Shown here one piece after another: positions 35,767-51,068 of a DNA stretch of 64,000 bases. The position numbers were made by a program, and so were the translations under genes. Below the pieces are notes generated by a model, which had not been told where the DNA came from, did no database searches, and saw only the letters and a list, made by a program, of their open reading frames with translations. This DNA comes from Bradymonas sediminis (GTDB lineage Bacteria; Myxococcota_A; Bradymonadia; Bradymonadales; Bradymonadaceae). The stretch covers positions 596,001 through 660,000 of the forward strand of contig NZ_CP030032.1 of NCBI RefSeq assembly GCF_003258315.1, in the 5' to 3' direction. Within the stretch, counting starts at the first letter, position 1, and each line of letters opens with the position of its first letter.

Positions 35767-35858
35767 CTTCGTTTTGAAGTCAATCGCGCCTGCGGGGTGC
35801 CACTAGGTTTTTTGTGTGTTTTTTGATCGTCGATGCGATCGGGAGCGTTTGTGTGGCT

Positions 35859-36482
35859 ATGGAGCAAAGAAATCATGTCTCACCCCGAAATGCACCAAGA
35901 AGAACTCGATCGTTACGGGAAAACGTGACCGCTATTCACCGTCCAGCCTTTAAGGCGAAAACCCCGATCCGCCCCACCGACCTCATCTCCCAAGCGCCGC
36001 TGGCCGGCTTCGATACCGAGACCGACGGCCTCTATATCGAGCGCGGCGCGCGGATTCGGGAGTTCGCCCTGGTGGACCAAGGCGGGCTTCGGCTGGGCTG
36101 GAGCGGCTTGGGGGATGCAAACGCAACGCTTACCTCCGAGCTGCTTGGACGGCTAATGAACAGCTTCGAGGGAACCATTCTCGTTGGGCATAATTTAAGC
36201 TTTGACCTGAAGTTCTTAGCCGCCGAGGCCGACCGGCTCGGGCAGTTCTGCCCACCCCTCTATTGCATCGATACACTCGGACTTAGTCGCAAATACCTGG
36301 CTAATATGCTCGACAATTTCGAGCTGGCTCGGGTCGCCAGGCATCTGCAGCTCGCGTTGCCCGACGCGCTCCACCGTGCCGAGCCCGACGCTCGACTAAG
36401 CCTGTCGGTATTCGAGAGTTTGTCGGAGCGTTTCGCACTCAAAACATTGGCCGATGCTAAGATGCGGCGATTCGCGCTTTAA
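35859..36482 (+). CDS. DnaQ-like DEDDh 3'-5' exonuclease at the head of the cas operon
   Basis: Enzymes of this group remove nucleotides from 3' ends using two metals. The core starts LAGFDTETDGLY (DxE), then TILVGHNLSFDLKFLAAEA (NxxxD), then a C-terminal helix with His and Asp five residues apart (LPDALHRAEPDARLS), which is the DEDDh form. The gene is 21 bp ahead of cas3 on the same strand, so co-transcription is likely. In type I-E systems DnaQ or ExoT trims prespacers, and some cas2 genes carry a fused DEDDh domain; a free-standing copy in the operon fits that job by inference. Starts are uncertain: ATG 35859, GTG 35814 or GTG 35925 are in frame, and a short ORF (35875-35928) overlaps the last. 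Confidence 0.8.
   Translation: MEQRNHVSPRNAPRRTRSLRENVTAIHRPAFKAKTPIRPTDLISQAPLAGFDTETDGLYIERGARIREFALVDQGGLRLGWSGLGDANATLTSELLGRLMNSFEGTILVGHNLSFDLKFLAAEADRLGQFCPPLYCIDTLGLSRKYLANMLDNFELARVARHLQLALPDALHRAEPDARLSLSVFESLSERFALKTLADAKMRRFAL
35875..35928 (+). CDS. possible leader ORF overlapping the exonuclease start region
   Basis: A 17-codon ORF, MSHPEMHQEELDRYGKT, begins with an ATG that has GGAG nine bases upstream. Its TGA overlaps a GTG (35925) in the exonuclease frame, so the two could be translationally coupled. It may be chance, or the 5' end of the exonuclease in a shifted frame. Confidence 0.25.
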   Translation: MSHPEMHQEELDRYGKT

Positions 36483-36503: not shown

Positions 36504-39134
36504 TTGAAGCTTCCTATAAACACATTTTGGGCGAAGACCGCGCGCGACGAAGATGGCCGCCTTGTTGGCTGGCACCCGCTTATGGCGCATTCGGCCGACG
36601 TGGCGGCGATGCTCGAGGCGTTGCTTGAGCACACAATATTGGGGCGTCGACTCGGGCATTTGCTTGGCCAAGAGCACCTCAGCCCGGCACAGACTGCTCG
36701 TCTTTGCGTGCTCGCTGCGCTTCATGATGTCGGCAAGGTCAATCACGGGTTTCAGGCGCGTGCGCTCGACAAAAAGGCCCCGCCTATCGGGCATGTCGCC
36801 CCGTTGATCAACTTTCTTCGGACCGATGACGCGATTCAGGGTGAGCTCGTTGAGGCGTTGGGGGTTCGAGAGATCGCCGGATGGTTTGGCGGCGAACAGG
36901 AGGTAATCGCGTTCCTGCTGGCCACCTGGGGGCACCACGGTCGCCCCGTTGAGCCGCAGCCGGGCTTTCGGGCGCATTTATGGCGTAAAAAGGATGCACA
37001 AAGCCCTGTTCAGGGCATCGAGGACCTGCGCCGAGCCACAGAGGCGTGGTTTCCGCAGGCTTTTGACGACGCTCCGGCGTTTCGCATGTCCTCCGAATTC
37101 TTGCACGCCTACAACGGCGTGCTGACCCTGGCCGACTGGATGGGCTCGGACGAGCAGGTTTTCTGTTGGCGCGACGACGAGTCTAATCGCATTGAATTCG
37201 CGCGCGAGCAGGCCCGCCAGGCGCTGCAAAAGATGGGGCTTAATCCAGCACGTGCCCGCGCGTCGCTCGGCGAGAAAACGCCTGAATTCGCGGCGGTCAG
37301 TCCATTTCCACCCTACGAGATTCAACGGGTTTGCGCCGAGTTGCCCATTCACCAAAACGGTAGCCTGACGGTGCTCGAGTCCGACACCGGTTCGGGTAAA
37401 ACTGAGGCCGCGATCGCCCGCTTTATCCGGCTCTTTCACGCCGGCGAGGTCGACGGCATGTATTTCGCGTTGCCGACGCGTACGGCGGCGACTCAGCTTT
37501 ATCGGCGTGTGGTCGAGACCCTTGAGCGCGCGTTTCCAGACCCAGAGATACGCCCGCCCGCGGTGTTGGCGGTGCCGGGATATTTGGAGGTCGACGGCAC
37601 CCAGGCGGTGCAACGGCTGCCGCATTTTCGGGTCCTATGGCCTGATCAGAGCCGTCACAGATGGCGCGGCTGGGCGGCCGAGCAGCCCAAACGCTATCTG
37701 GCGGGGGCGGTCGCAGTGGGGACCATCGACCAGGCGCTCTTATCGGGGCTTAAGGTTGGCCACGCGCACCTGCGCGCCTCGGCGCTTCTGCGCCACCTCT
37801 TGGTGGTCGATGAGGTCCACGCCTCCGATACCTATATGACCCGACTGCTCGAAACGGTGCTCGATCATCATCTGAACGCCGGCGGCCACGCGCTGTTGAT
37901 GTCGGCTACGCTGGGAAGCGCCACGCGTACTCGGCTCGTGACGCGGGGGCGCCAACAGCCGCCTGGGTTAGAGGAGGCCGCCCAGGAGCCTTATCCGCTC
38001 CTGACTCACGTCGACGGCCGGCGGCGTGAGCCGGTCCAACTCCACGCGCCTTCCTCGGATTATTCCAAGACGGTTCAAATCGACGGCCAGCAGCTCGCCG
38101 AGCACCCCGCCGAGATTGCCCGCGTCGCCGTGGCGGCGGCTAAAAAAGGTGCGCGGGTGCTCATTATCCGCAATACCGTCGCGACCTGTCGGCAGGTGCA
38201 GTTGGCCCTGGAGGATGAGGTCGGCTCGGCGCGCGAACTACTTTTCGATGTGGGCGGCGTCCCCGCTCCCCATCATTCCCGCTTCGCGGGCGTCGATCGC
38301 GTCGCGCTCGACCAGGCCATTGAGGCCAATTTTGGAAAGGACACCGCGCGCGCCGGATGTGTGGCCGTCGCTACCCAGACCGTCGAGCAGAGCCTTGATA
38401 TCGACGCGGACCTTCTGCTCAGCGATTTATGCCCGGTCGACGTGCTCCTGCAACGAATCGGTCGGCTGCACCGCCACGACAGGCGCGCGCGTCCGGGCGG
38501 TTTTAGCGCGCCAAAATTGGTCGTGCTTCTCCCCGATGAGCGCGACCTCGGCGCGTTTATTCAGGAGTCCGGGCAGGGGCGCGGCCCCTGCGGGCTGGGC
38601 ACCGTCTACAGTGATATGCGCATGCTCGAGGCGACCTGGCGGTTGATTGAGCAAAAATCCACCTGGACTATCCCAGCGATGAATCGCGAGTTGGTCGAGC
38701 GCGCTACGCACCCGGAGGGGCTGGCTGAAATAGTTTCAGATTTGGGTGGCGCTTGGGTTTCTCATGCGATATGTATGGGCGGAACAGAATTCGCAGACAG
38801 GGCCCTGGCCGACCTAAACCTAATTGATCGCACGATTCTTTATGGTGATTCGGACTCTTTATTCTCGAGCGATCTCGACGAGCGCATCAAGACGCGTCTG
38901 GGCGAGGGCGATCGGCGAGTGCGCATTGAAGATGCGGTGATTGGGCCTTTTGGCGAGGCGACCCGAGAGCTTACGCTGCCGGCTTTTATGGCCAATCATG
39001 CGGCTGATGACTCCAATGAACAACCGGAGGAATTCGCCACCGAGATTCGCGTCGAGGACGACGCCTTGTATTTTGACTTCGCCGGCCAAAGCTATCGCTA
39101 CGACCGGTTGGGCATCCAACTTCATCAACAATAA
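36504..39134 (+). CDS. cas3: CRISPR-associated nuclease-helicase Cas3 (type I-E)
   Basis: Cas3 is recruited by Cascade to the displaced strand, which it nicks and then degrades processively. The 876-residue protein has an N-terminal HD nuclease: HPLMAHSADVAAML near residue 24 and LAALHDVGKVNHGFQ near 71. Then SF2 helicase motifs: LESDTGSGKTEAAIARFI (Walker A, near 294), ALPTRTAATQLYRR, LVVDEVHASDTYMTRLLE (DEVH, near 432), ALLMSATLGS, and TQTVEQSLDIDADLLLSD with QRIGRLHRH (motifs V-VI). The start is TTG at 36504, supported by AGGAG seven bases upstream; no better ATG is in frame. Length is usual for Cas3. It is followed by cas8e after 24 bp. Confidence 0.96.
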   Translation: MKLPINTFWAKTARDEDGRLVGWHPLMAHSADVAAMLEALLEHTILGRRLGHLLGQEHLSPAQTARLCVLAALHDVGKVNHGFQARALDKKAPPIGHVAPLINFLRTDDAIQGELVEALGVREIAGWFGGEQEVIAFLLATWGHHGRPVEPQPGFRAHLWRKKDAQSPVQGIEDLRRATEAWFPQAFDDAPAFRMSSEFLHAYNGVLTLADWMGSDEQVFCWRDDESNRIEFAREQARQALQKMGLNPARARASLGEKTPEFAAVSPFPPYEIQRVCAELPIHQNGSLTVLESDTGSGKTEAAIARFIRLFHAGEVDGMYFALPTRTAATQLYRRVVETLERAFPDPEIRPPAVLAVPGYLEVDGTQAVQRLPHFRVLWPDQSRHRWRGWAAEQPKRYLAGAVAVGTIDQALLSGLKVGHAHLRASALLRHLLVVDEVHASDTYMTRLLETVLDHHLNAGGHALLMSATLGSATRTRLVTRGRQQPPGLEEAAQEPYPLLTHVDGRRREPVQLHAPSSDYSKTVQIDGQQLAEHPAEIARVAVAAAKKGARVLIIRNTVATCRQVQLALEDEVGSARELLFDVGGVPAPHHSRFAGVDRVALDQAIEANFGKDTARAGCVAVATQTVEQSLDIDADLLLSDLCPVDVLLQRIGRLHRHDRRARPGGFSAPKLVVLLPDERDLGAFIQESGQGRGPCGLGTVYSDMRMLEATWRLIEQKSTWTIPAMNRELVERATHPEGLAEIVSDLGGAWVSHAICMGGTEFADRALADLNLIDRTILYGDSDSLFSSDLDERIKTRLGEGDRRVRIEDAVIGPFGEATRELTLPAFMANHAADDSNEQPEEFATEIRVEDDALYFDFAGQSYRYDRLGIQLHQQ

Positions 39135-39158
39135 CGACGCATGGCGGGGAATTAACCC

Positions 39159-40733
39159 ATGGCTGATACACGCTATAATCTGCTCGATGACGCCTTATTG
39201 AGCGTGCGCAGGACCGACGCAACGCGACTCCAATACACGCTCCCTCAGGTGCTCGCCGCGCTGGCGGACGACGCGATCGAATCCTTCGACGCGCTTCAGA
39301 TTCACCAGCGCCAACCCTGGCATAGCTTTTTGGTCCAGATCGCCGCGATGGCGATGGCCCGACACGGACTCACCGAACCGCCCACCGACTCTGAGCAGTG
39401 GAACTCCCTATTGCTCGAACTCGCCGATGGCGAACCCAGCGCGTGGTGCTTGGTTGTCGAGGATGTGAGCAAGCCGGCGTTTTTGCAGCCGCCGGTGCCC
39501 GAAGGGACGCTCAAAAAGGCCAAATATAAGCTGGATATTGAATCGCCCGACGATCTTGACATTCTTATCACGGCAAAAAACCACGATATTAAGCGGTTCC
39601 GACTTGTTCATCCAACCGTCGAGCACTGGCTCTATGCGCTGCTGACATTGCAGACCATGGAGGGTTTCTTGGGGCGAGGCAATTACGGTATTGCGCGAAT
39701 GAACGGTGGTTTTGGCAATCGTCCGCTTCTGGGCATGACGCCTGGCATAGGCTGGGGCGCGCGGTTTGTGCGCGACGTGGCGGTGCTGGCAAAGGCTCGG
39801 CCGAAACTGACCGATGACCGGTACGACGAGAACGGCGTTGCGCTGGCATGGACGCTGCCTTGGGATGGATCGAAAAAGGACGCGCTTCCCCTCCAAGATT
39901 GCGACCCCTACTTTATTGAGCTTTGCCGGCGGCTGCGCTTTCTCGAAACCGCCCACGGACTGGAGTGCTGGCGCAGTAACACCAACGACTACCGCGTGGC
40001 GGGCGTCAAGGAACTCAACGGACTCACCGGTGACCCCTGGACGCCGGTAGTGCGCGACAAAAAGGAAGCCAAATCTCTCACGGTCAGCGAGAACGGCTTC
40101 GACTATCAGATGCTCAATAAAATCCTATTTAGTGGGGACTACGAGAAGCCCGCGACCTTCAACGTCGAAGGGATCGATGGGGGCGTCTTTTTAGTCGCAA
40201 CCACCTTGGTGCGCGGGCAGGGGAAGACCGACGGCTTCCATCACCGAATCGTGCCAATGCCGCCCAAAATTAACCGCCTATGGTCGAAGCCCTCTGCCCG
40301 CGAAAAGCTCGGCCAGCGCGCCGAGGAGCGCGTGCAAATCGCCGCCACCATGCGCAAGCAGATTCTCTATCCATCTCTATGTGCGCTCCTGCAGGCGGGC
40401 GGCTCGGCCCAGATTGACTACGCCGACGTCGCGACCTGGATGAACGCCTACGAGGCCGAGGTCGACGACGTCTTCTTCGACGCGCTGTGGGAATCGGTCG
40501 ATCTGGAGCCCGAGGTCGCCCAATTCAATTGGGAGGAGACGATTTACACGATTGGCCGTGCTCGCCTTGAGGCCGCAATCGAGTCCTGCCCGCTGCCTTC
40601 AATTCGACGGTGGCGCGCTATCAGCAACGCCGAGGGGCGTTTCGAGGGGGCAGCCCGCAAATTTCTAAGCACTTTATTTCAGCCCAAAGACATCACTAAG
40701 GAGGAGAGCCATGAGCAACTCGCAGGGGCCTGA
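39159..40733 (+). CDS. cas8e: Cascade large subunit Cas8e (Cse1/CasA)
   Basis: Cas8e is the large Cascade subunit that reads the PAM and helps recruit Cas3. The 524-residue length fits. The N-terminus carries LLDDALLSVRR, a common family opening (YNLLD...W). Later family features include LVVEDVSKPAFLQPPVPEG, FGNRPLLGMTPGIGWGARF and ECWRSNTNDYRVAGVKELNG. Identification rests on these and on the position between cas3 and cse2. The ATG has GGGG eight to eleven bases upstream. The 3' end overlaps cse2 by 23 bp, typical of tightly coupled Cascade genes. Confidence 0.92.
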   Translation: MADTRYNLLDDALLSVRRTDATRLQYTLPQVLAALADDAIESFDALQIHQRQPWHSFLVQIAAMAMARHGLTEPPTDSEQWNSLLLELADGEPSAWCLVVEDVSKPAFLQPPVPEGTLKKAKYKLDIESPDDLDILITAKNHDIKRFRLVHPTVEHWLYALLTLQTMEGFLGRGNYGIARMNGGFGNRPLLGMTPGIGWGARFVRDVAVLAKARPKLTDDRYDENGVALAWTLPWDGSKKDALPLQDCDPYFIELCRRLRFLETAHGLECWRSNTNDYRVAGVKELNGLTGDPWTPVVRDKKEAKSLTVSENGFDYQMLNKILFSGDYEKPATFNVEGIDGGVFLVATTLVRGQGKTDGFHHRIVPMPPKINRLWSKPSAREKLGQRAEERVQIAATMRKQILYPSLCALLQAGGSAQIDYADVATWMNAYEAEVDDVFFDALWESVDLEPEVAQFNWEETIYTIGRARLEAAIESCPLPSIRRWRAISNAEGRFEGAARKFLSTLFQPKDITKEESHEQLAGA

Positions 40734-41286
40734 AGCCCTCGAAATTTCCGAAACGCCCGACGGCGAGAAGACGCTTCGCAGCGTGCTCGGCGCGATCGCT
40801 GCGGCGTTTGAGCGCAACGCCCAGGGCCAGCGCGGCGGCCTGTCCAACGGGGATATGGCCGAGCTACGCCGCATCTCGCCTGACAAACCCTATACGCCTG
40901 CGTTGTGGAGGATCTTGCTCGATTTCGTGCCCGACGGATGGGTCGCCGGGCCCGATCGCGACCAAAAGGAGCGCCAGTGGGCGACGCTTTTGATGGCGAT
41001 GGCCATCTGCGCCGGCCAGCACGACCCCTATAAGCGCCTGGGCAGCGCGTTGGCCGAGGCGGGCTGGTCGGAGCTTCGGTTTGTGCGCCTTTTGCGCGCC
41101 CGCGACGCGCGCCTGGAGGCCGAAGTGCGCCGGCTCTCCCAATATCTGTCGAGCAAGGGCACCCCGGCGAATTTTGGGGACCTGGCTCAACTGCTCTTTC
41201 ATCAAGATGGGGAGCTGGCCGAGAACCGCCGCCGCCAGATCGCGCGCAGCTATTATCGCGCGTTGCATTCGCTTGAATCTAAATAA
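40711..41286 (+). CDS. cse2: Cascade small subunit Cse2 (CasB/Cas11e)
   Basis: Cse2 forms a dimer in the belly of Cascade and stabilises the R-loop. The 191-residue, mostly helical protein has the family-like LWRILLDFVPDGW, ATLLMAMAICAGQHDP and the basic C-terminal WSELRFVRLLRARDARLEAEVRR region, in which Arg residues would contact nucleic acid. AAGGAGGAG (40698-40706) is a very strong ribosome-binding site, and the start lies inside the end of cas8e. A 63-bp gap, unusually long for this operon and AT-rich, precedes cas7. Confidence 0.93.
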   Translation: MSNSQGPEALEISETPDGEKTLRSVLGAIAAAFERNAQGQRGGLSNGDMAELRRISPDKPYTPALWRILLDFVPDGWVAGPDRDQKERQWATLLMAMAICAGQHDPYKRLGSALAEAGWSELRFVRLLRARDARLEAEVRRLSQYLSSKGTPANFGDLAQLLFHQDGELAENRRRQIARSYYRALHSLESK

Positions 41287-41349
41287 TTTATTGCTCCGAA
41301 TTCCCTAGAATAGACCTTTTGACACAGATTGATGTGAAGGATTAAGACC

Positions 41350-42633
41350 ATGACCGACGCCAAATTCTTGCAGATCCACACCCTTACCTCGTACCCCGGC
41401 ACGCTCCTAAACCGCGACGACGCTGGCTTCGCCAAGCGCATGCCCTTCGGCGGGGCGACCCGCACGCGGGTGTCCTCGCAATGCCTGAAATATCATTGGC
41501 GAAATTTCGACGGCGAGGGCGCGCTCTATAAAATGGAGTTCGAGGAGCCGGTGCGCTCAATCCGCTCGCGCACGACCTTCCGTGACCTGGTCGCCAAGCC
41601 CATGATCGAGCGTGGCCTGCCGGAGCGCCTGGTCGTGGCGACCGTCGAGACCTTCGTGCAGCGGCTCATGTCGGACGATGCGCCCTCGGCGGCTGATTAT
41701 AAAGCCTCCCTTATGTCCGCCAGTAGCCCGGAAGAACCACTGATCGACCGTCTTAAGACCAACCAGGTCACGATCTTCGGTGAGCCGGAGCTGCGCTATA
41801 TTATCAAGGCGTCGGCCGAGCTGATCGCCGAGATGAAGCCTGAGCTTGGCGAGCTGTGGGAGAACCCGGCGATGAAGCTGAGCAAGGAGCAGGTCAAGGT
41901 GGTCACGGACACCCTGGGGAAGCTGAAAAAGGGTGACCTTAAAAAGAATATTAAGGGGATGAAGCTGGCCTCCGGGCTCGACGCGGCGCTTTTCGGGCGC
42001 ATGGTCACCAGCGATGTGTTGAGCCGCGGGGATGCCGCGATTCACGTCGCCCACGCGTTCACGGTGCACGAGGAGGCCAGCGAGAGCGATTATTTCGCCG
42101 CCATCGACGAGCTTCGTCGCGACAGCGGTGAGTTGGGCGGCGGACATATCAATAGCTCGGAGCTCACCAGCGGGTTGTATTACGGTTATACCGTCATCGA
42201 CGTGCCCCTTTTGATCTCGAACCTGGAGGGCTGCGCGCGCGAGGATTGGAAGAGCGCTGACCGTACGCTGGCCGCCCAGGTCGTCGAGCGATTCGTCAAG
42301 CTTCAGGCGACGGTGTCGCCGGGGGCAAAGCTCGGCTCGACCGCGCCCTATGCCTGGGCCGAATGTGTGTTGGTCGAGGCCGGCTCCGCCCAGCCGCGCA
42401 CGCTGGCTAACGCGTTCCGTCGCCCGGTGCGCGAGCAGCCCGACGTGCTTGAGAACGCCTACCAGGCCCTCGGCAGCTATGTCCACGGCATCGACCAGAT
42501 GTACGGGCACAGCGGCGAGCGTCGTCTGTCGGTGAGCTCCGATGCCGCCGGTCTGGCGGACGCGCTCGGCGTCGAGGCGCCGGTGTCGCTTCCCAATAGC
42601 GCGCAGTGGGCCGCCGAAATGGTCAAGGGGTGA
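41350..42633 (+). CDS. cas7e: Cascade backbone subunit Cas7e (Cse4/CasC)
   Basis: Six copies of Cas7 build the crRNA-holding backbone. The 427-residue protein opens with FLQIHTLTSYPGTLLNRDD and FGGATRTRVSSQCLKYHWR, which are hallmark Cas7e blocks (RAMP fold; Arg/Ser contacts to crRNA). HINSSELTSGLYYGYTVIDV near residue 262 is the conserved thumb-proximal region. E. coli Cas7e has about 363 residues, so this copy is somewhat long; an insertion around residues 95-200 (LIAEMKPELGELW and following) accounts for it. AAGGA precedes the ATG. Confidence 0.95.
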   Translation: MTDAKFLQIHTLTSYPGTLLNRDDAGFAKRMPFGGATRTRVSSQCLKYHWRNFDGEGALYKMEFEEPVRSIRSRTTFRDLVAKPMIERGLPERLVVATVETFVQRLMSDDAPSAADYKASLMSASSPEEPLIDRLKTNQVTIFGEPELRYIIKASAELIAEMKPELGELWENPAMKLSKEQVKVVTDTLGKLKKGDLKKNIKGMKLASGLDAALFGRMVTSDVLSRGDAAIHVAHAFTVHEEASESDYFAAIDELRRDSGELGGGHINSSELTSGLYYGYTVIDVPLLISNLEGCAREDWKSADRTLAAQVVERFVKLQATVSPGAKLGSTAPYAWAECVLVEAGSAQPRTLANAFRRPVREQPDVLENAYQALGSYVHGIDQMYGHSGERRLSVSSDAAGLADALGVEAPVSLPNSAQWAAEMVKG

Positions 42634-42636
42634 GGT

Positions 42637-43368
42637 ATGGATATTCTATTGATGCGGCTGCAAGCGCCGCTGTTAAGCTTTGGCGCGCCGATCATTGACA
42701 GGCACGGCGTTATTCAAGCCTATCCCGCCCAGTCGATGATCTGCGGGCTTCTGGCCAACGCGCTGGGCTATCACCACCGCGACGCCGAGCTCCTGCAGCG
42801 TTTGCAGGAGCGAATCGTCTACGCCTCGCGCCAGGACCGAAAGGGCGAGCGCGTGCGGGATTATCAGACGGTGGCGATGGGGCAGGATTTTATGCTCGAT
42901 GAGCGCGCCTGGACGACCCGCGGCCAATTGGAGGAGCGCGGCGGGGGCAATAAAACCGGCACGCATATCCGGCTGCGTGACTATTGGGCCGACGCGGCGC
43001 ATACGGTGGCCGTCACGCTCACGCCCGCAGACGAGGCGCCCACGATTGAAGCGCTGGCCGAGGCGCTGCAACGCCCGGCGCGCCCGTTATTTATTGGGCG
43101 AAAGACCTGCGCGCCCTCGGAGCCGATTTATCTGGGCCGCACTCAGGCCGAGAGCCTGCTCGACGCGCTCAAGGCGGCCCCGCTGGCCCGCGGGGTGTCG
43201 ACGCCGGCGCGGTGTGAGGCCTGGTGGCCCAGCTCGGCCAGCGCCGACGAGGCGCCCGGCATCTTTCGCCAACCCGTCACCGACCAGCGCGACTGGGCCA
43301 ACCAGATTCACGTCGGCCAGCGCTGGGTGGCGCGCGGACACCTTATGATTGGACATTCCAAGGAGTAG
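42637..43368 (+). CDS. cas5e: Cascade subunit Cas5e (CasD)
   Basis: Cas5 caps the 5' handle of the crRNA and joins the backbone to Cas8e. The 243-residue protein begins MDILLMRLQAPLLSFGAP, the RAMP strand with the typical Cas5 N-terminus, then QSMICGLLANALGYHHRD, and later GGGNKTGTHIRLRDYW with the glycine-rich loop. PARPLFIGRKTCAPSEPIYL is the C-terminal conserved region. The start is three bases after the cas7 stop and the ATG is preceded by GGGGTGAGG. Confidence 0.95.
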   Translation: MDILLMRLQAPLLSFGAPIIDRHGVIQAYPAQSMICGLLANALGYHHRDAELLQRLQERIVYASRQDRKGERVRDYQTVAMGQDFMLDERAWTTRGQLEERGGGNKTGTHIRLRDYWADAAHTVAVTLTPADEAPTIEALAEALQRPARPLFIGRKTCAPSEPIYLGRTQAESLLDALKAAPLARGVSTPARCEAWWPSSASADEAPGIFRQPVTDQRDWANQIHVGQRWVARGHLMIGHSKE

Positions 43369-43371
43369 AGC

Positions 43372-44178
43372 ATGACGGATTCTAAAACACTCGGCGCGCC
43401 GCTTTATATGGTGCAATTCTGGTTCAGCACGCGCCGACTCGCCGAGCTGGCGCGCGCGCTGCGGTTGCCGCTGCGCCACGCCGATACCTCATATATGGTG
43501 CATTGTGCGCTTGGCGAGCTTTTCGGCACGAACGCGCCGGGCTTGTATTATGTCGACGTGCAGCATGGGCCCAAGAAGGTCGATGACGGGCGTGATGTGC
43601 GTGTGTTGGCCTACTCGGAGCTTCCTGGCGATGCCCTGATGGAGTTGGCGCGCGGTTTTGCCAGTCCGATGGTCTACGCGACCTGCGATTTTGAGCGCAT
43701 GGCCGCCAAGCCCATGCCCTCGCATTTCGCCCCGGGCATGCGCCTGGGGTTTGAGCTGCGCGCCTGTCCTGTCATTCGCAAAGCGTCGGCCGGAGAGTCC
43801 CCATCGGGGCGCAGAAAGTGGCGGCGCGGCCAGGAGCTCGACGCGTTTGTCGCCCGCTCCTGGGAGCTCGATGACCCCGAGGTCGACCTCGAGCGCGAGG
43901 CGGTTTACCGTGAATGGTTAACCGGGCATTTTGAGCGCAGCGGGGCGGTGCGGACGCGGCGGATTTCGCTGGAGCGCTTCTCGCTGGACCGGTTTTTGCG
44001 CCGCCACGGGCCCCAGGCCTCGGGCAAGCGCAAGGCCAGCACCATCACCCGGCCGGCCGCCACATTCAGCGGCGAACTCGAGGTGCTTGACGCGGCTCAA
44101 TTTGGCGAGTTGCTGCGCCGCGGCATTGGCCGGCATAAGAGCTTTGGCTTTGGGATGCTTAAGATTCGGCGGGCCTGA
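43372..44178 (+). CDS. cas6e: crRNA-processing endoribonuclease Cas6e (Cse3/CasE)
   Basis: Cas6e cuts the pre-crRNA at the base of the repeat hairpin and stays bound to the product. The 268-residue protein is a little longer than usual (about 200-220). Tyr41 and His44 in DTSYMVHCALGELF have the spacing of the catalytic Tyr/His pair in characterised Cas6e. GIGRHKSFGFGMLKIRR at the C-terminus is the Gly-rich loop of RAMP proteins. The extra length is mainly a basic stretch near 142-150 (SGRRKWRRG) and one near 212-220. AAGGAG overlaps the end of cas5. The repeat hairpin it should recognise has a 6-bp stem and an AGAC loop. Confidence 0.93.
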   Translation: MTDSKTLGAPLYMVQFWFSTRRLAELARALRLPLRHADTSYMVHCALGELFGTNAPGLYYVDVQHGPKKVDDGRDVRVLAYSELPGDALMELARGFASPMVYATCDFERMAAKPMPSHFAPGMRLGFELRACPVIRKASAGESPSGRRKWRRGQELDAFVARSWELDDPEVDLEREAVYREWLTGHFERSGAVRTRRISLERFSLDRFLRRHGPQASGKRKASTITRPAATFSGELEVLDAAQFGELLRRGIGRHKSFGFGMLKIRRA

Positions 44179-44219
44179 GCGTGGCGTTGTTAATGGACAT
44201 ATCAAAGAGGGGGTAGGGG

Positions 44220-45101
44220 ATGCTGAAGGGGCGACTCGGGCTTGAAACCGCGCGCGTGCCGCACGTCGACCGCCACGGTCTATTATGGCTGGGGCGGGGA
44301 AAGTTGACGGTTCAAAATGGCAATCTGGTCTTTTCGACCGCGGGCACCGACGCGCTCGCCCGCGGCGTGTATGACCTGCCGTTTCAGACCATCTCCAATA
44401 TTCTTCTCGGCCCAGGCTGTCTGGTTAGCCATGATGCCCTGCGGCTGCTCGCTCGCCATCAAACGGGCCTTTTGGCGGTGGGCACCAACGGGGTTCGCGT
44501 CTATGCGACGAGCATGCCGCCGGGGCCCGACCACTCGCGCCTGGCCCGCGAGCACGCGCGGGTGTGGGCCGACCCGGAGGCGCGCATCCAGATCACCCGC
44601 AGGATGTACGCCATGCGCCTGGGCGAGTATTTGCCGCATCGCGACCTGAATGCGCTGCGGGGGGTCGAAGGCCACCGCATGAAGCAGGTCTATAAAAACC
44701 TCGCCGAGCAATTTGGGGTGAAGTGGTCTGGGCGAAGTTTCGACCGAAATAACCCCGAAAATGACAACGATATCAACACCGCCATCAATCACGCGGCGAC
44801 CGCGATGTACGCCTCGGCGCGCATCGCGGTGGCGTTGACCGGGACGATTCCGCAGTTGGGGTTTATCCACGAGGCCAGCGGCCACGCATTTGCGCTGGAT
44901 ATCGCGGACCTTTTTAGGGCCAATACGACGTTGCCCATCGCGTTTGGGGCCGTCAAACAATTCCAGCGGCGCGAGGGCGACAAGCTCGAGCGCATCACTC
45001 GCACGCGCGCCGGGCGCACGCTGCAGCAGAAGAAGGTCATCGCCAAGATGATCGACGCGATAAAGGAGCTCATTGAAGAGTCGGAGAGCCCCGAGGGCTG
45101 A
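44220..45101 (+). CDS. cas1: CRISPR integrase Cas1 (type I-E)
   Basis: Cas1 integrates prespacers as a Cas1-Cas2 complex. The 293-residue protein carries the metal-binding triad in expected places: Glu150 in LRGVEGHRMK, and His217 with Asp227 and Asp230 in GFIHEASGHAFALDIADLF. The RHQTGLLAVGTNGVRVYAT region and PFQTISNILLGPGCLVS are type I-E Cas1 features. The gene is 41 bp after cas6 and 54 bp before cas2. Confidence 0.96.
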   Translation: MLKGRLGLETARVPHVDRHGLLWLGRGKLTVQNGNLVFSTAGTDALARGVYDLPFQTISNILLGPGCLVSHDALRLLARHQTGLLAVGTNGVRVYATSMPPGPDHSRLAREHARVWADPEARIQITRRMYAMRLGEYLPHRDLNALRGVEGHRMKQVYKNLAEQFGVKWSGRSFDRNNPENDNDINTAINHAATAMYASARIAVALTGTIPQLGFIHEASGHAFALDIADLFRANTTLPIAFGAVKQFQRREGDKLERITRTRAGRTLQQKKVIAKMIDAIKELIEESESPEG

Positions 45102-45155
45102 GGCGGCGCGGGGGCAAATGCTGATATCTCGTTGAAATTATATGGAGCGAATCTT

Positions 45156-45509
45156 ATGGCCATGACCGTCGCCGTGACGCGAAATCTACCGGAGCGATTC
45201 CATGGGTTTTTAGCCTCCTGCATGCTCGAGGTCGCCCCGGGGGTGTATGTCGCGCCCTCGATGCGCAAGGCGATTCGAGAGCGCCTGTGGGATGTGATGT
45301 TGGGGTGGGCCACGCTGGTGCCCGCCGACGGGGGCATCGCTTTGTTCTGGAAGAGCAAGACCGCACCATCGGGGCTGGGCCTGCGCATGATTGGCTGGCC
45401 CAAAAAGGAGCTCGTCGAGCACGAGGGCGTTTGGCTCACGATGCGCGCGCTGACCCAGGCGCACGACCACGACGAGTTGGAAGGATTGTTGGAGGGCGCT
45501 GAGGACTAG
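45156..45509 (+). CDS. cas2: CRISPR-associated Cas2 (type I-E)
   Basis: Cas2 forms the dimeric core of the integration complex. The 117-residue protein has the I-E form: VAVTRNLPERFHGFLASCML, then EVAPGVYVAPSMRKAIRERL and a C-terminal GLGLRMIGWPKKELVEHEG. There is no DEDDh fusion, so trimming activity must come from another protein; the exonuclease at the head of the operon is the obvious candidate. The ATG at 45156 has GGAG nine bases upstream; a TTG at 45132 in frame is less likely. Confidence 0.95.
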   Translation: MAMTVAVTRNLPERFHGFLASCMLEVAPGVYVAPSMRKAIRERLWDVMLGWATLVPADGGIALFWKSKTAPSGLGLRMIGWPKKELVEHEGVWLTMRALTQAHDHDELEGLLEGAED

Positions 45510-45881: not shown

Positions 45882-46673
45882 TCAGGGGGCGTCGCCGAGC
45901 AGCGGCAACGGCTCGGCGCGCTCAACGGGCGTCTCGGGCGTCTCTCCGGTTTGAGGGTCGACGGTGGGGATTGATTTATAGCGTTTAAAATACTCCGCGA
46001 CGCGTTTTTGCTGAATATAAAGCGGTTTGAGCCGCTGCGCGAGGATGTCGGGCTGGTCGACCAGCTCGCCGATCAGGGCGAGCAGGAATTTGTGGAAGAG
46101 CTGGTCAGCCTGTTCGCGCAGCGTCGAGACCTTCTCGAAGCTAATGCGCTCAACACCCCGGCTGAGCGCCTCGCCGTATTCCGTGTTGATCACCTCGAGC
46201 TGGTCGACCAACGCGCTCACGCCGACGGCGGCCAATTCGGCGGTGTATTCGGCGCGCAGCGTGGCGATAAGCGCGCGGACCTGGTTATGCTCTTCGTTGA
46301 AGCTCAGGGTGGTGTAGGGGGCCACGCCGCGCGCAAAAAGCGCGTCGATCACGGTGCGGGCCTGGGTGGACGCGGGGCCGCCGGCGGGCATCTCAGCGTA
46401 GGTTTTCAGGATGGTATGCAGGCTTCCGAGCTGGCGGTCGAGTTCGTGGTCGATGCTACGCGCGTCGCTGCGCGCGGTCTCGTTGAGCTCCTTTTGGTTG
46501 AGCCAGCGCAGGTTCGCCTCGTTTGCGCGCTCGTTGGCCGCGAGAGCGTCGGCGTGCAGGCCGTCGAGGCGGGGCAGGCCGAGCGCGGCGAGGTCCGCAC
46601 TCATTTGGTCGAGCACGTGGCGTTGGCTGCCGTTGTCCATCGTGCGCAAATTAAGCATCTTGCTGAAATCCAT
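45882..46673 (-). CDS. unknown helical protein between cas2 and the CRISPR leader
   Basis: I do not recognise this protein. From the ATG at 46673 it has 263 residues (GGAAGG eight bases upstream, which is why I prefer it over 46751). It is rich in Leu, Glu, Gln and Arg and mostly helical, with heptad-like stretches (LRWLNQKELNETARSDARS and LIATLRAEYTAELAAVGVSA). It has no signal peptide. The tail is Pro/Glu-rich (PQTGETPETPVERAEP). It loosely recalls DUF6261-like proteins, which I cannot confirm. It is transcribed away from the array, towards cas2, and lies within the two flanking repeat copies. A role in CRISPR is not shown. Confidence 0.7.
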   Translation of the reverse strand: MDFSKMLNLRTMDNGSQRHVLDQMSADLAALGLPRLDGLHADALAANERANEANLRWLNQKELNETARSDARSIDHELDRQLGSLHTILKTYAEMPAGGPASTQARTVIDALFARGVAPYTTLSFNEEHNQVRALIATLRAEYTAELAAVGVSALVDQLEVINTEYGEALSRGVERISFEKVSTLREQADQLFHKFLLALIGELVDQPDILAQRLKPLYIQQKRVAEYFKRYKSIPTVDPQTGETPETPVERAEPLPLLGDAP

Positions 46674-46953
46674 GATCTTGCCTTCCTTGCCCGGGGCGAC
46701 CCGGGCCGAATTGTTTGATCCAGGCCCACGCGGGCCGAATATTGGCGCCACTCAACGTCTATCGAGTCCGTGTCGAGCGCGCGGCGTCTCAGGCGTAGAT
46801 ACTGCTCACACCCCTGCTGATTTTTGCTGCTGAGGAAAAATCTAGCATAGAACCCAAAGCGTTGAGAAGGAGGGGGAGTTGTGCCGAAAAGTTGCTCGCA
46901 TTTATTTGGTATTCGTGTAATTATCGAGGTGCTCCGCGACAAAGTGTCGCAGA
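46674..46953 (+). promoter_or_regulatory. CRISPR leader
   Basis: The 280 bp between the unknown gene and repeat 1 is AT-richer in its last 100 bases (46880-46930), as leaders are. It is on the side of the non-degenerate end of the array, which marks the integration end. An inverted repeat GCGACA-AAG-TGTCGC (46936-46950) ends three bases before repeat 1. I cannot place the promoter or an IHF site with confidence. Confidence 0.75.
46936..46950. promoter_or_regulatory. inverted repeat at the leader-repeat junction
   Basis: GCGACA-AAG-TGTCGC is a perfect 6-bp inverted repeat ending three bases before the first repeat. Its GACAAAGTGTC core also occurs at 18369-18379. It may guide leader-end integration or bind a regulator. 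Confidence 0.5.
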
Positions 46954-49900
46954 GGTTCCCCCGCAGACGCGGGGATAGTCCTCATTGTGAAGGCGTCCAG
47001 GTCGTCGTTGATGAGGTTCCCCCGCAGACGCGGGGATAGTCCCTCTACCATGTGAGGGTCTTGGCGGCCTTGCCAGGTTCCCCCGCAGACGCGGGGATAG
47101 TCCTTTTGTCTAGCGCCCCGAACGCCGCTTTTTTCTGGTTCCCCCGCAGACGCGGGGATAGTCCCTTTTCGCTCTTTATCGCAGGCGAGGCGTCTGAGGT
47201 TCCCCCGCAGACGCGGGGATAGTCCTTCGGTTACAGATCAACAGATTCAGCATCCAGGGGTTCCCCCGCAGACGCGGGGATAGTCCCTCACACACGCATC
47301 TGGATTTAATAGCGTGCATGGTTCCCCCGCAGACGCGGGGATAGTCCCTGAAGGCCGCCACCCGCCGTCGTTGTTTCGACGGTTCCCCCGCAGACGCGGG
47401 GATAGTCCCTAGATATGCGGAGTCGCGGCGCGCTCTTCGGAGGTTCCCCCGCAGACGCGGGGATAGTCCTCATGGTGAAGGCGTCGAGGTCATCGTTGAT
47501 GAGGTTCCCCCGCAGACGCGGGGATAGTCCTCGTTCCGATGGCCGTTAAACCAGACTCTTCTAGGTTCCCCCGCAGACGCGGGGATAGTCCGGCGCGACC
47601 TTGCCATTCGCCGGCGATTTTGCGGGTTCCCCCGCAGACGCGGGGATAGTCCCTTGATAAAGGTCAAAAAGCCTCGGATCTGAAAGGTTCCCCCGCAGAC
47701 GCGGGGATAGTCCCCAGCGCGGGGCGCGTCGGGTTTTGGAGGTCGTGGTTCCCCCGCAGACGCGGGGATAGTCCTGGTCTCGGATAAGCGCCGAAAGGAT
47801 TAGATCAGGTTCCCCCGCAGACGCGGGGATAGTCCTGATAAAATCCCGCGACCCAGCCGACTGGTCGCGGTTCCCCCGCAGACGCGGGGATAGTCCCGTG
47901 CACCCCGCGACGCAGCTTGTGTACCGGGTGGTTCCCCCGCAGACGCGGGGATAGTCCCTCCGGACCCGAGGGCGACCCCGACAACGCGCGGGTTCCCCCG
48001 CAGACGCGGGGATAGTCCCCACGCACCATGGGATGCCACCGATATCGCGCTGGTTCCCCCGCAGACGCGGGGATAGTCCCTGGTGGAGGTGTCGAAATGA
48101 GCACTCGAGGAGGGTTCCCCCGCAGACGCGGGGATAGTCCTACATGCTGGAAATACAGCGCACCTGGCAGACCGGTTCCCCCGCAGACGCGGGGATAGTC
48201 CTGAACCTACTAGGCGTTCTGGATCTGCCAGATCGGTTCCCCCGCAGACGCGGGGATAGTCCCGCCCATCTTTATGAGCTCGTCGTAGCGCACGCGGTTC
48301 CCCCGCAGACGCGGGGATAGTCCTTGCATCGAGCAGAACTCAAACGGCCCGGTGTGGGTTCCCCCGCAGACGCGGGGATAGTCCCATCTACACTGGCCTT
48401 CCGCTCGCTGAGATCGCGGTTCCCCCGCAGACGCGGGGATAGTCCTATCCGGTCGTGGTGCTGGTGATAACCGGCGCCGGTTCCCCCGCAGACGCGGGGA
48501 TAGTCCCAACGCACGCGCCCCATCAGAATGATAAAATCCGGTTCCCCCGCAGACGCGGGGATAGTCCTTTGTCGGACTTCGGCTTTCTCTTTGCGGGCTT
48601 GGTTCCCCCGCAGACGCGGGGATAGTCCCGTCGATGAAGCGATGCGGCTTCGCGGCGATGAGGTTCCCCCGCAGACGCGGGGATAGTCCCCTTGGCCCGA
48701 ATCCCGTCTAGCGCCCCGAACGGGTTCCCCCGCAGACGCGGGGATAGTCCTCATCATCGGATGCCTGAGCATCGCCGCGCTGCGGTTCCCCCGCAGACGC
48801 GGGGATAGTCCCGCTTCGCGATGATGGGACTTTGCCGCGCTATAGGTTCCCCCGCAGACGCGGGGATAGTCCCGCCGGGGGGAGAGGGTGCGCGCTATGC
48901 GGGCTGGTTCCCCCGCAGACGCGGGGATAGTCCTGGGAAAAATGCGATCTGAGTCCTAGCAAGCGCGGTTCCCCCGCAGACGCGGGGATAGTCCCTTTGC
49001 CGCGCTATACTTCCCACGGCGCATACCGGTTCCCCCGCAGACGCGGGGATAGTCCTTTCGCCGCGCGCCCACGGGTTGATCGTGTATTGGTTCCCCCGCA
49101 GACGCGGGGATAGTCCCGGTGACGCCAAGAAGATATTTATCGGAGACGGGGTTCCCCCGCAGACGCGGGGATAGTCCTTGGCGCGATTCCATCGCGATGA
49201 TGTCGACGTGGGTTCCCCCGCAGACGCGGGGATAGTCCCTTTGCCGCGCTATACTTCCCACGGCGCATACCGGTTCCCCCGCAGACGCGGGGATAGTCCT
49301 CCGCATAGAAATTCGGGCTGTTATGAGCCAAGGGTTCCCCCGCAGACGCGGGGATAGTCCTTGGGGGAAGAAGTCGGGGTTAAGGTCGGCGATGGTTCCC
49401 CCGCAGACGCGGGGATAGTCCCGCGGGGGTGCAGAAGGGGGACATCAAGGCGATGGTTCCCCCGCAGACGCGGGGATAGTCCTTGGGGGAAGAAGTCGGG
49501 GTTAAGGTCGGCGATGGTTCCCCCGCAGACGCGGGGATAGTCCCGCGGGGGTGCAGAAGGGGGACATCAAGGCGATGGTTCCCCCGCAGACGCGGGGATA
49601 GTCCTAGGAGCTGGAAATTGGCTTGCTCGGCATAGTAGGTTCCCCCGCAGACGCGGGGATAGTCCTCCTTGCGCTGTTTCGACGCCACCCGTTGCGCTGG
49701 TTCCCCCGCAGACGCGGGGATAGTCCCGGAACGGGGTCGTTGGATGTCTCAACGTCCTGGGTTCCCCCGCAGACGCGGGGATAGTCCTAACCCGAGCGGA
49801 GAGCGCGTATGAGCAATGAAGGTTCCCCCGCAGACGCGGGGATAGTCCTGACGGCGCTACACGCACTCCTAGCACGCGCCCGGTTCCCCCGCAGACGCGG

Positions 49901-51068
49901 GGATAGTCCTTAGTCGCATATCTCCACCGTCTAGGTCGAGACGGTTCCCCCGCAGACGCGGGGATAGTCCTATGTTCGTGATCAGCGGCAAGGTCAGCAT
50001 GTCGGTTCCCCCGCAGACGCGGGGATAGTCCTCCGCCCTGGTCTGATTCAGCCCGGTTCGTGCGGGTTCCCCCGCAGACGCGGGGATAGTCCTATGCTTT
50101 GATACTCGTCAGACATAACGATGCGGGTTCCCCCGCAGACGCGGGGATAGTCCCACATGACAAGCAACGACAAAAGCCTGATCGAAGGTTCCCCCGCAGA
50201 CGCGGGGATAGTCCATGTCCGCGCGTCAGTTCGCCAGTTGGGTCGCAGGTTCCCCCGCAGACGCGGGGATAGTCCCTTCGGGGACACCATGCACCTGGAG
50301 ACGATATCGGTTCCCCCGCAGACGCGGGGATAGTCCCGCGCAGATCGATTGCCTTCTCAACCTGCCTATGGTTCCCCCGCAGACGCGGGGATAGTCCCAC
50401 GGTCGGCGAGAACCGCAACGTCTATATGCCGGTTCCCCCGCAGACGCGGGGATAGTCCCATATCTCGGCCAGACTTGTCCGACTGGCTGCCGGTTCCCCC
50501 GCAGACGCGGGGATAGTCCTGCCGCTTGGTACCTAAGAAGAATATAGGAACCGGTTCCCCCGCAGACGCGGGGATAGTCCTTATTCGGTATAAGCCGCGA
50601 AGCCATCATCAACGGTTCCCCCGCAGACGCGGGGATAGTCCTCAAGAACGCCCGCATTAAGGCGGGTATCAGCCGGTTCCCCCGCAGACGCGGGGATAGT
50701 CCCCTGTACGGGGCGAACCTGATCGGGGCGGATCTGGTTCCCCCGCAGACGCGGGGATAGTCCTTACAATCAAACAACTCACCAACATCCACGCGTGGTT
50801 CCCCCGCAGACGCGGGGATAGTCCTCCCGATACGGACATCGTACGGGATGAGTGGCTGGTTCCCCCGCAGACGCGGGGATAGTCCCGGCTCGCTGATCTC
50901 GCCACGGAGCTGCGCGACGGTTCCCCCGCAGACGCGGGGATAGTCCCGAGCGAGACGCCCTGATGCGCCGCATTGCGCTGGTTCCCCCGCAGACGCGGGG
51001 ATAGTCCCCCTTCATCGACCACATCGGCACCAGACCTTTGGGTTCCCCCGCAGACGCAGGGATACTCT
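46954..51068 (+). CRISPR. type I-E CRISPR array, 68 repeats and 67 spacers
   Basis: The repeat is 28 nt, opening GGTTCCCCCGCAG and ending GGGGATAGTCC. A 6-bp stem (CCCCGC/GCGGGG) closes an AGAC loop. All 68 repeats start at 46954 plus a multiple of 61, so every spacer is 33 nt with no exception. Repeats 1-67 read as identical; repeat 68 (51041-51068) has three changes and marks the distal end. The leader is on the left, so transcription is rightward, which also places the ATAGTCC handle correctly 5' of each spacer. 33 spacers start with C, 32 with T, one with G (spacer 11) and one with A (spacer 54). Spacers 38, 42 and 43 repeat spacers 34, 40 and 41 exactly. If the first base is PAM-derived, guides are 32 nt. 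Confidence 0.99.

Follow-up and report, generated by a model that had tools for sequence, protein, structure and literature searches.

We found that two spacers in the CRISPR array of Bradymonas sediminis, spacers 1 and 9, are highly likely to be separate canonical type I-E acquisitions from the same PAM site of a capsid gene, each made from a different variant of one phage lineage. The sampled site would be the RQ[A/T][L/I]INDDLDAF segment of a PF25209 major capsid gene. The comparisons described below give good support to their independent acquisition from variant phages.

A complete type I-E locus with one array

We examined a window of 64,000 nucleotides of the B. sediminis genome (contig NZ_CP030032.1, positions 596,001 to 660,000). 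The complete type I-E gene set lies in one operon on the plus strand (36504-45509), comprising cas3 (36504-39134), cse1, cse2, cas7, cas5, cas6e and cas1e (39159-45101), and cas2e (45132-45509). The cas3 product scores above the cut-offs for the core and HD domains and below the cut-off for the full-length Cas3 equivalog. Directly upstream of cas3 is a gene for a DEDDh (DnaQ-like) exonuclease (35814-36482); exonucleases of this kind trim prespacers in other systems. A DUF6261-family gene occupies the minus strand between cas2 and the leader (45882-46751).

The array (46954-51068, plus strand) consists of 68 repeats, GGTTCCCCCGCAGACGCGGGGATAGTCC, and 67 spacers, and no other array in the 5.05-Mb genome has this repeat. 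Repeats are 28 nt and all 67 spacers exactly 33 nt, giving the ~61-bp period of type I-E arrays, and the arrangement is that of a ~29-nt repeat and a 32-nt spacer once the PAM-derived base is counted with the repeat. All but one of the repeats are identical (67/68), the exception being the last (51041), which is decayed. Since an AT-rich leader and the cas genes adjoin the spacer 1 end and the decayed repeat is at the opposite end, spacer 1 is the newest, in agreement with the original prediction. Exact duplications are also present within the array: spacer 34 (48995-49027) equals spacer 38 (49239-49271), and the block of spacers 40-41 (49361-49454) recurs as spacers 42-43 (49483-49576).

Spacers 1 and 9 differ at three synonymous positions

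Spacer 1 (46982-47014) and spacer 9 (47470-47502), both given on the plus strand, are identical in register at 30/33 bases. The mismatches, at positions 5, 17 and 23, are all in one codon phase. In the frame that starts at base 3 of the reverse complement (minus strand), both spacers encode INDDLDAFTM, and all three differences are synonymous. These properties had been read from the sequence in the original prediction, and our re-computation confirmed each of them. In an alternative frame on the plus strand, two of the three changes are silent (IVKASRSSLM / MVKASRSSLM).

No other non-identical pair in the array matches in register. In 20 trials with shuffled spacers, no pair reached 22/33 in register, so the identity of spacers 1 and 9 is not due to chance, and we ruled out chance similarity on this basis. 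For the codon pattern, we calculated that three random substitutions fall in one phase in 9.1% of cases, and that in 6.9-7.0% there is an open frame in which all three are synonymous. At a chance level of ~7%, the codon argument is by itself too weak to carry the claim, and the synonymous pattern alone is mildly informative.

The predicted target is a PF25209 major capsid gene

The original prediction proposed a comparison of INDDLDAFTM with phage proteins. When this was done, the peptide was located in frame in a PF25209 major capsid protein of two metagenomic phage contigs, which were the only matches to a degenerate INDDLDAFTM pattern among 2.9 million IMG/VR contigs. In both contigs it lies within a 679-aa protease-capsid fusion, in the context ISRQALINDDLDAFTMAPRRMG. 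This protein has a prohead protease domain at its N-terminus, matches Phage_capsid_4 (PF25209, E 7e-58) and also matches PHROG 4523, 'major head and protease protein'. Using blastn of spacer 1 against annotated phages, we obtained as top matches the capsid genes of Bordetella, Rhodobacter and Stenotrophomonas phages, along with a Streptomyces phage gene annotated only as hypothetical. All top matches are on the same strand, and the frame, read out for one of each phage group, is the predicted one. Their E-values range from 0.03 to 1, and we find such matches persuasive solely through their agreement on gene, strand and frame.

We compared 77 family sequences with spacer 1 over INDDLDAF. Of the differences, 275 fall on third codon positions, 101 on first and 63 on second. 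Four residues of the motif, R, N, D and D, are invariant in 77/77 sequences, partly by construction because the locating pattern fixes these residues, and they are also invariant in a four-protein alignment. The site of spacers 1 and 9 is among the best conserved in the PF25209 family. The methionine that follows INDDLDAFT in both spacers is found in 1 of 47 distinct contexts, and because both carry this rare residue they probably derive from the same branch.

Exact protospacers of spacers 1 and 9 were found neither in IMG/VR, GTDB genomes and INPHARED phages nor in the 5.05-Mb genome of B. sediminis itself. For this reason the target gene is assigned by homology, and self-targeting and a prophage of the host's own were rejected as sources. 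A search of 57 class-level relatives, run without a positive control, returned no prophage with a PF25209-type capsid. PF25209 head-protease fusions such as gp10 of Rhodobacter phage RcBaka belong to the same gene family as the predicted target, whereas the phages that actually infect this host are absent from the collections, and the best identity at the site is 30/33, as seen between spacer 9 and locus L067 despite a K instead of M after INDDLDAFT. The source phages would have carried a PF25209 capsid gene. The claim that two variants of one coding gene were sampled at the same site is supported by the in-frame PF25209 matches, with the qualification that no collection searched contained the exact protospacers.

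A PAM-fixed register would account for the shared 33-base site

The first base is C or T in 65/67 spacers, and therefore the first of the 33 bases behaves as the PAM-derived base. In E. coli type I-E this base is counted as repeat base 29, whereas here it is base 1 of 33. Among three pairs of spacers that overlap on the same strand (described below), AA stands upstream of T in two (before spacers 15 and 3) and GA upstream of C in one. Relatives of the target mostly have xAT or xAC at the spacer 1/9 site, which comes from a conserved Ile or Val codon, and 21% have AAY. The PAM of the type I-E system here is probably AAY. The V. cholerae type I-E system has 28-bp repeats, 33-nt spacers, a 5' pyrimidine and an RTT/AAY PAM established by experiment (PMC7677007). 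It has in common with the B. sediminis system the 28-nt repeat, the 33-nt spacers, the PAM-derived pyrimidine in first place and the I-E cas genes (PMC7677007); unlike V. cholerae, B. sediminis is another host with another repeat, and its PAM is predicted from two overlapping spacers and the context in relatives.

Spacers 1 and 9 cover the same 33-base site because type I-E acquisition takes a fixed length from the PAM, so that a re-sampled PAM repeats the register. Specifically, Cas1-Cas2 would capture 33 bp fixed to an AAY motif, with Y as the first base, and sampling the same PAM again in a variant phage would yield an identical 33-base register. The variants would differ only at third codon positions because the capsid protein is under strong purifying selection there. 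The original prediction emphasized that both spacers come from exactly the same place. The shared register agrees with this, with the qualification that a PAM-fixed register suffices and no special mechanism is needed.

Other spacers point to the same phage pool

Spacer 60 (50581-50613, plus strand), which the original prediction overlooked, hits the capsid motif of spacers 1 and 9 in the opposite orientation. LFGISREAIIN, encoded by its sense strand, immediately precedes INDD in the same capsid family, and its protospacer shares 8 nt with that of spacers 1 and 9, read from the opposite strand. Identity of spacer 60 to capsid genes reaches 27/33 bases (L055), against a maximum of 24 for shuffled spacers. 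The peptide agrees with locus L087 at 10/11 residues, and the SREAIIN variant is present in a capsid of the same family (L224). The best peptide score of spacer 60 equals the shuffled background, and therefore its assignment depends on the DNA match together with the shared register. From these, spacer 60 is very probably a third independent sample of the same conserved capsid stretch.

The sense strand of spacer 25 (48446-48478, plus strand) encodes YPVVVLVITGA, which matches FPGGVLVMTGANS of the GpA-type terminase large subunit. The DNA is identical at 26/33 bases to four loci (L115, L157, L177 and L190), and the match is to PF05876, the ATPase domain of GpA-type terminase. In a peptide-level scan of all spacers against phage loci, none other than spacers 1 and 9 rose above the shuffled background. 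A match of spacer 62 to Skermania phage SPI1, which reads like pentapeptide-repeat code, was rejected as being at chance level (E ~1).

Three further pairs, all on the plus strand of the array, overlap in the same orientation, with a null mean well under one. The first 11 nt of spacer 15 (47836-47868) are the last 11 nt of spacer 26 (48507-48539; 11/11), and spacer 26, the older of the two, contains the putative PAM of spacer 15, AAT. Spacer 3 (47104-47136) overlaps the target of spacer 29 (48690-48722) by 21 nt with three mismatches (18/21), and its putative PAM, also AAT, is contained in spacer 29. Spacer 31 (48812-48844), with the upstream context GA-C, overlaps the identical spacers 34 and 38 by 15 nt (15/15). 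Overlaps between spacers 24 and 65 and between spacers 28 and 30 were at the null level and were set aside. Assuming uniform sampling and ignoring diverged overlaps, we estimated from the four same-strand overlaps, among 64 different spacers, a pool of ~13 kb (95% range 5-47 kb); this size amounts to a single phage lineage or a small number of favoured regions. The overlaps indicate that the array samples a small phage pool again and again. Within the pair 29/3, we also observed a CCC to TTT difference in the first bases after the PAM.

Alternative explanations for the pair

Spacer 1 may have been added because a variant phage mismatched spacer 9, possibly via priming. Under priming, which is a special case of independent acquisition, a seed-mismatched variant would be poorly cut by spacer 9 and would trigger Cascade/Cas3-coupled re-acquisition of the site; we consider this a real possibility whose chances fall somewhat short of even. 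The original prediction reasonably placed mismatch position 5 in the seed and proposed that spacer 1 may restore matching to a variant that spacer 9 tolerates poorly. Position 5 of the 33-mer corresponds to position 4 of the crRNA spacer, which belongs to the I-E seed, and partial escape with reduced cutting and priming is therefore plausible. The other two mismatches are at crRNA positions 16 and 22, which are not among the bases that E. coli Cascade flips out at every sixth position. Mismatched targets are an established trigger of priming in type I-E systems, with new spacers taken from the strand on which the priming protospacer lies (PMC10011333), and the four same-strand pairs (26/15, 29/3, 31/34 and 9/1) fit such acquisition, whereas spacer 60 is an opposite-strand case. 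E. coli primed adaptation (PMC10011333) involves the same cas gene set, and a seed mismatch is expected to weaken cutting and stimulate acquisition; unlike in E. coli, priming here is something that we infer. Seven other spacers separate spacer 9 from spacer 1, and any spacer against the same phage lineage could have primed. Moreover, there are ~50 AAY sites per kb, or ~2100 in a 40-kb phage, and naive sampling without priming already gives exact re-sampling of one site ~0.1-1 times, depending on the number of spacers from that lineage.

It is unlikely that spacers 1 and 9 come from distantly related phages that are alike through deep conservation of the motif. Distinct family members encoding INDDLDAFT differ on average at 3.9 of 26 bases, and 17% of distinct family pairs differ by at most two over this 26-base core, as spacers 1 and 9 do, so the source phages need not be close relatives. 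The closeness of the K-bearing locus L067 to spacer 9 is in line with this. However, spacers 1 and 9 both have the rare M after T, and both have T as the first base.

We likewise think it doubtful that the array is being steered onto a capsid segment in which the phage has little freedom to change. By this account, retention or repeated priming would have led spacers 60, 9 and 1, which are of different ages, to tile a 58-bp highly conserved motif on both strands in several synonymous alleles; mainly silent changes would be open to the phage, and each would be answered by a new allele. The clustering is less striking than it seems because the true phages are absent from the collections, which limits recognition to spacers whose targets are very conserved motifs.

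Duplication of spacer 9 via repeat recombination, followed by three mutations in one copy, is very improbable: duplications do occur in the array (34=38 and 40-41=42-43), but the three duplicated spacers are identical at 99/99 bases and the repeats in 67/68 cases, the spacer 1 copy occupies the newest position, the changes are silent in a frame that separate evidence shows to be that of a capsid gene, and the probability of at least three changes in 33 bases is 0.07 from the duplicated spacers alone or ~2e-5 with the pooled divergence bound, a figure that overstates the strength because repeats are re-copied at each acquisition.

Related arrays and what the pair records

In other bacteria, two arrays built on a related repeat each contain a near-identical spacer pair that differs only by silent changes when read in an open frame: 37/73 in Chelativorans (L231) and 24/66 in a Dehalococcoidia MAG (L230). 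The silent pattern has a chance of 72% and 25% in these two pairs and is uninformative in each alone; the two pairs suggest that same-site silent pairs are ordinary. Phage contigs also gave matches of 29/33 bases to two Chelativorans spacers, outside the capsid motif, and the second of these reads like terminase sequence. The capsid motif was not found among the 610 spacers of other arrays with a related repeat, and the 104 spacers of the relative G009 include none in common with B. sediminis and none with the same target. The literature searched contained no earlier reports of same-array spacer pairs with one protospacer and silent differences, a search that says little.

The first spacer base is used differently among these arrays. 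In the G009 array (L024, L025), which has almost the same repeat, it is C in 103/104 spacers, compared with roughly equal use of C and T in the window. The Dehalococcoidia MAG arrays (among L230, L237 and L240) often have G. Such differing use with nearly one repeat suggests different PAM specificities.

As two acquisitions from variant phages, spacers 1 and 9 reflect a memory that is refreshed in ordinary CRISPR fashion, with no new mechanism. The array alone shows that its host encountered one phage lineage in successive variants and took up a single coding site repeatedly. Since only silent positions separate the stored alleles, pairs of this kind can help to identify the gene, the frame and the PAM of spacers without a database match.
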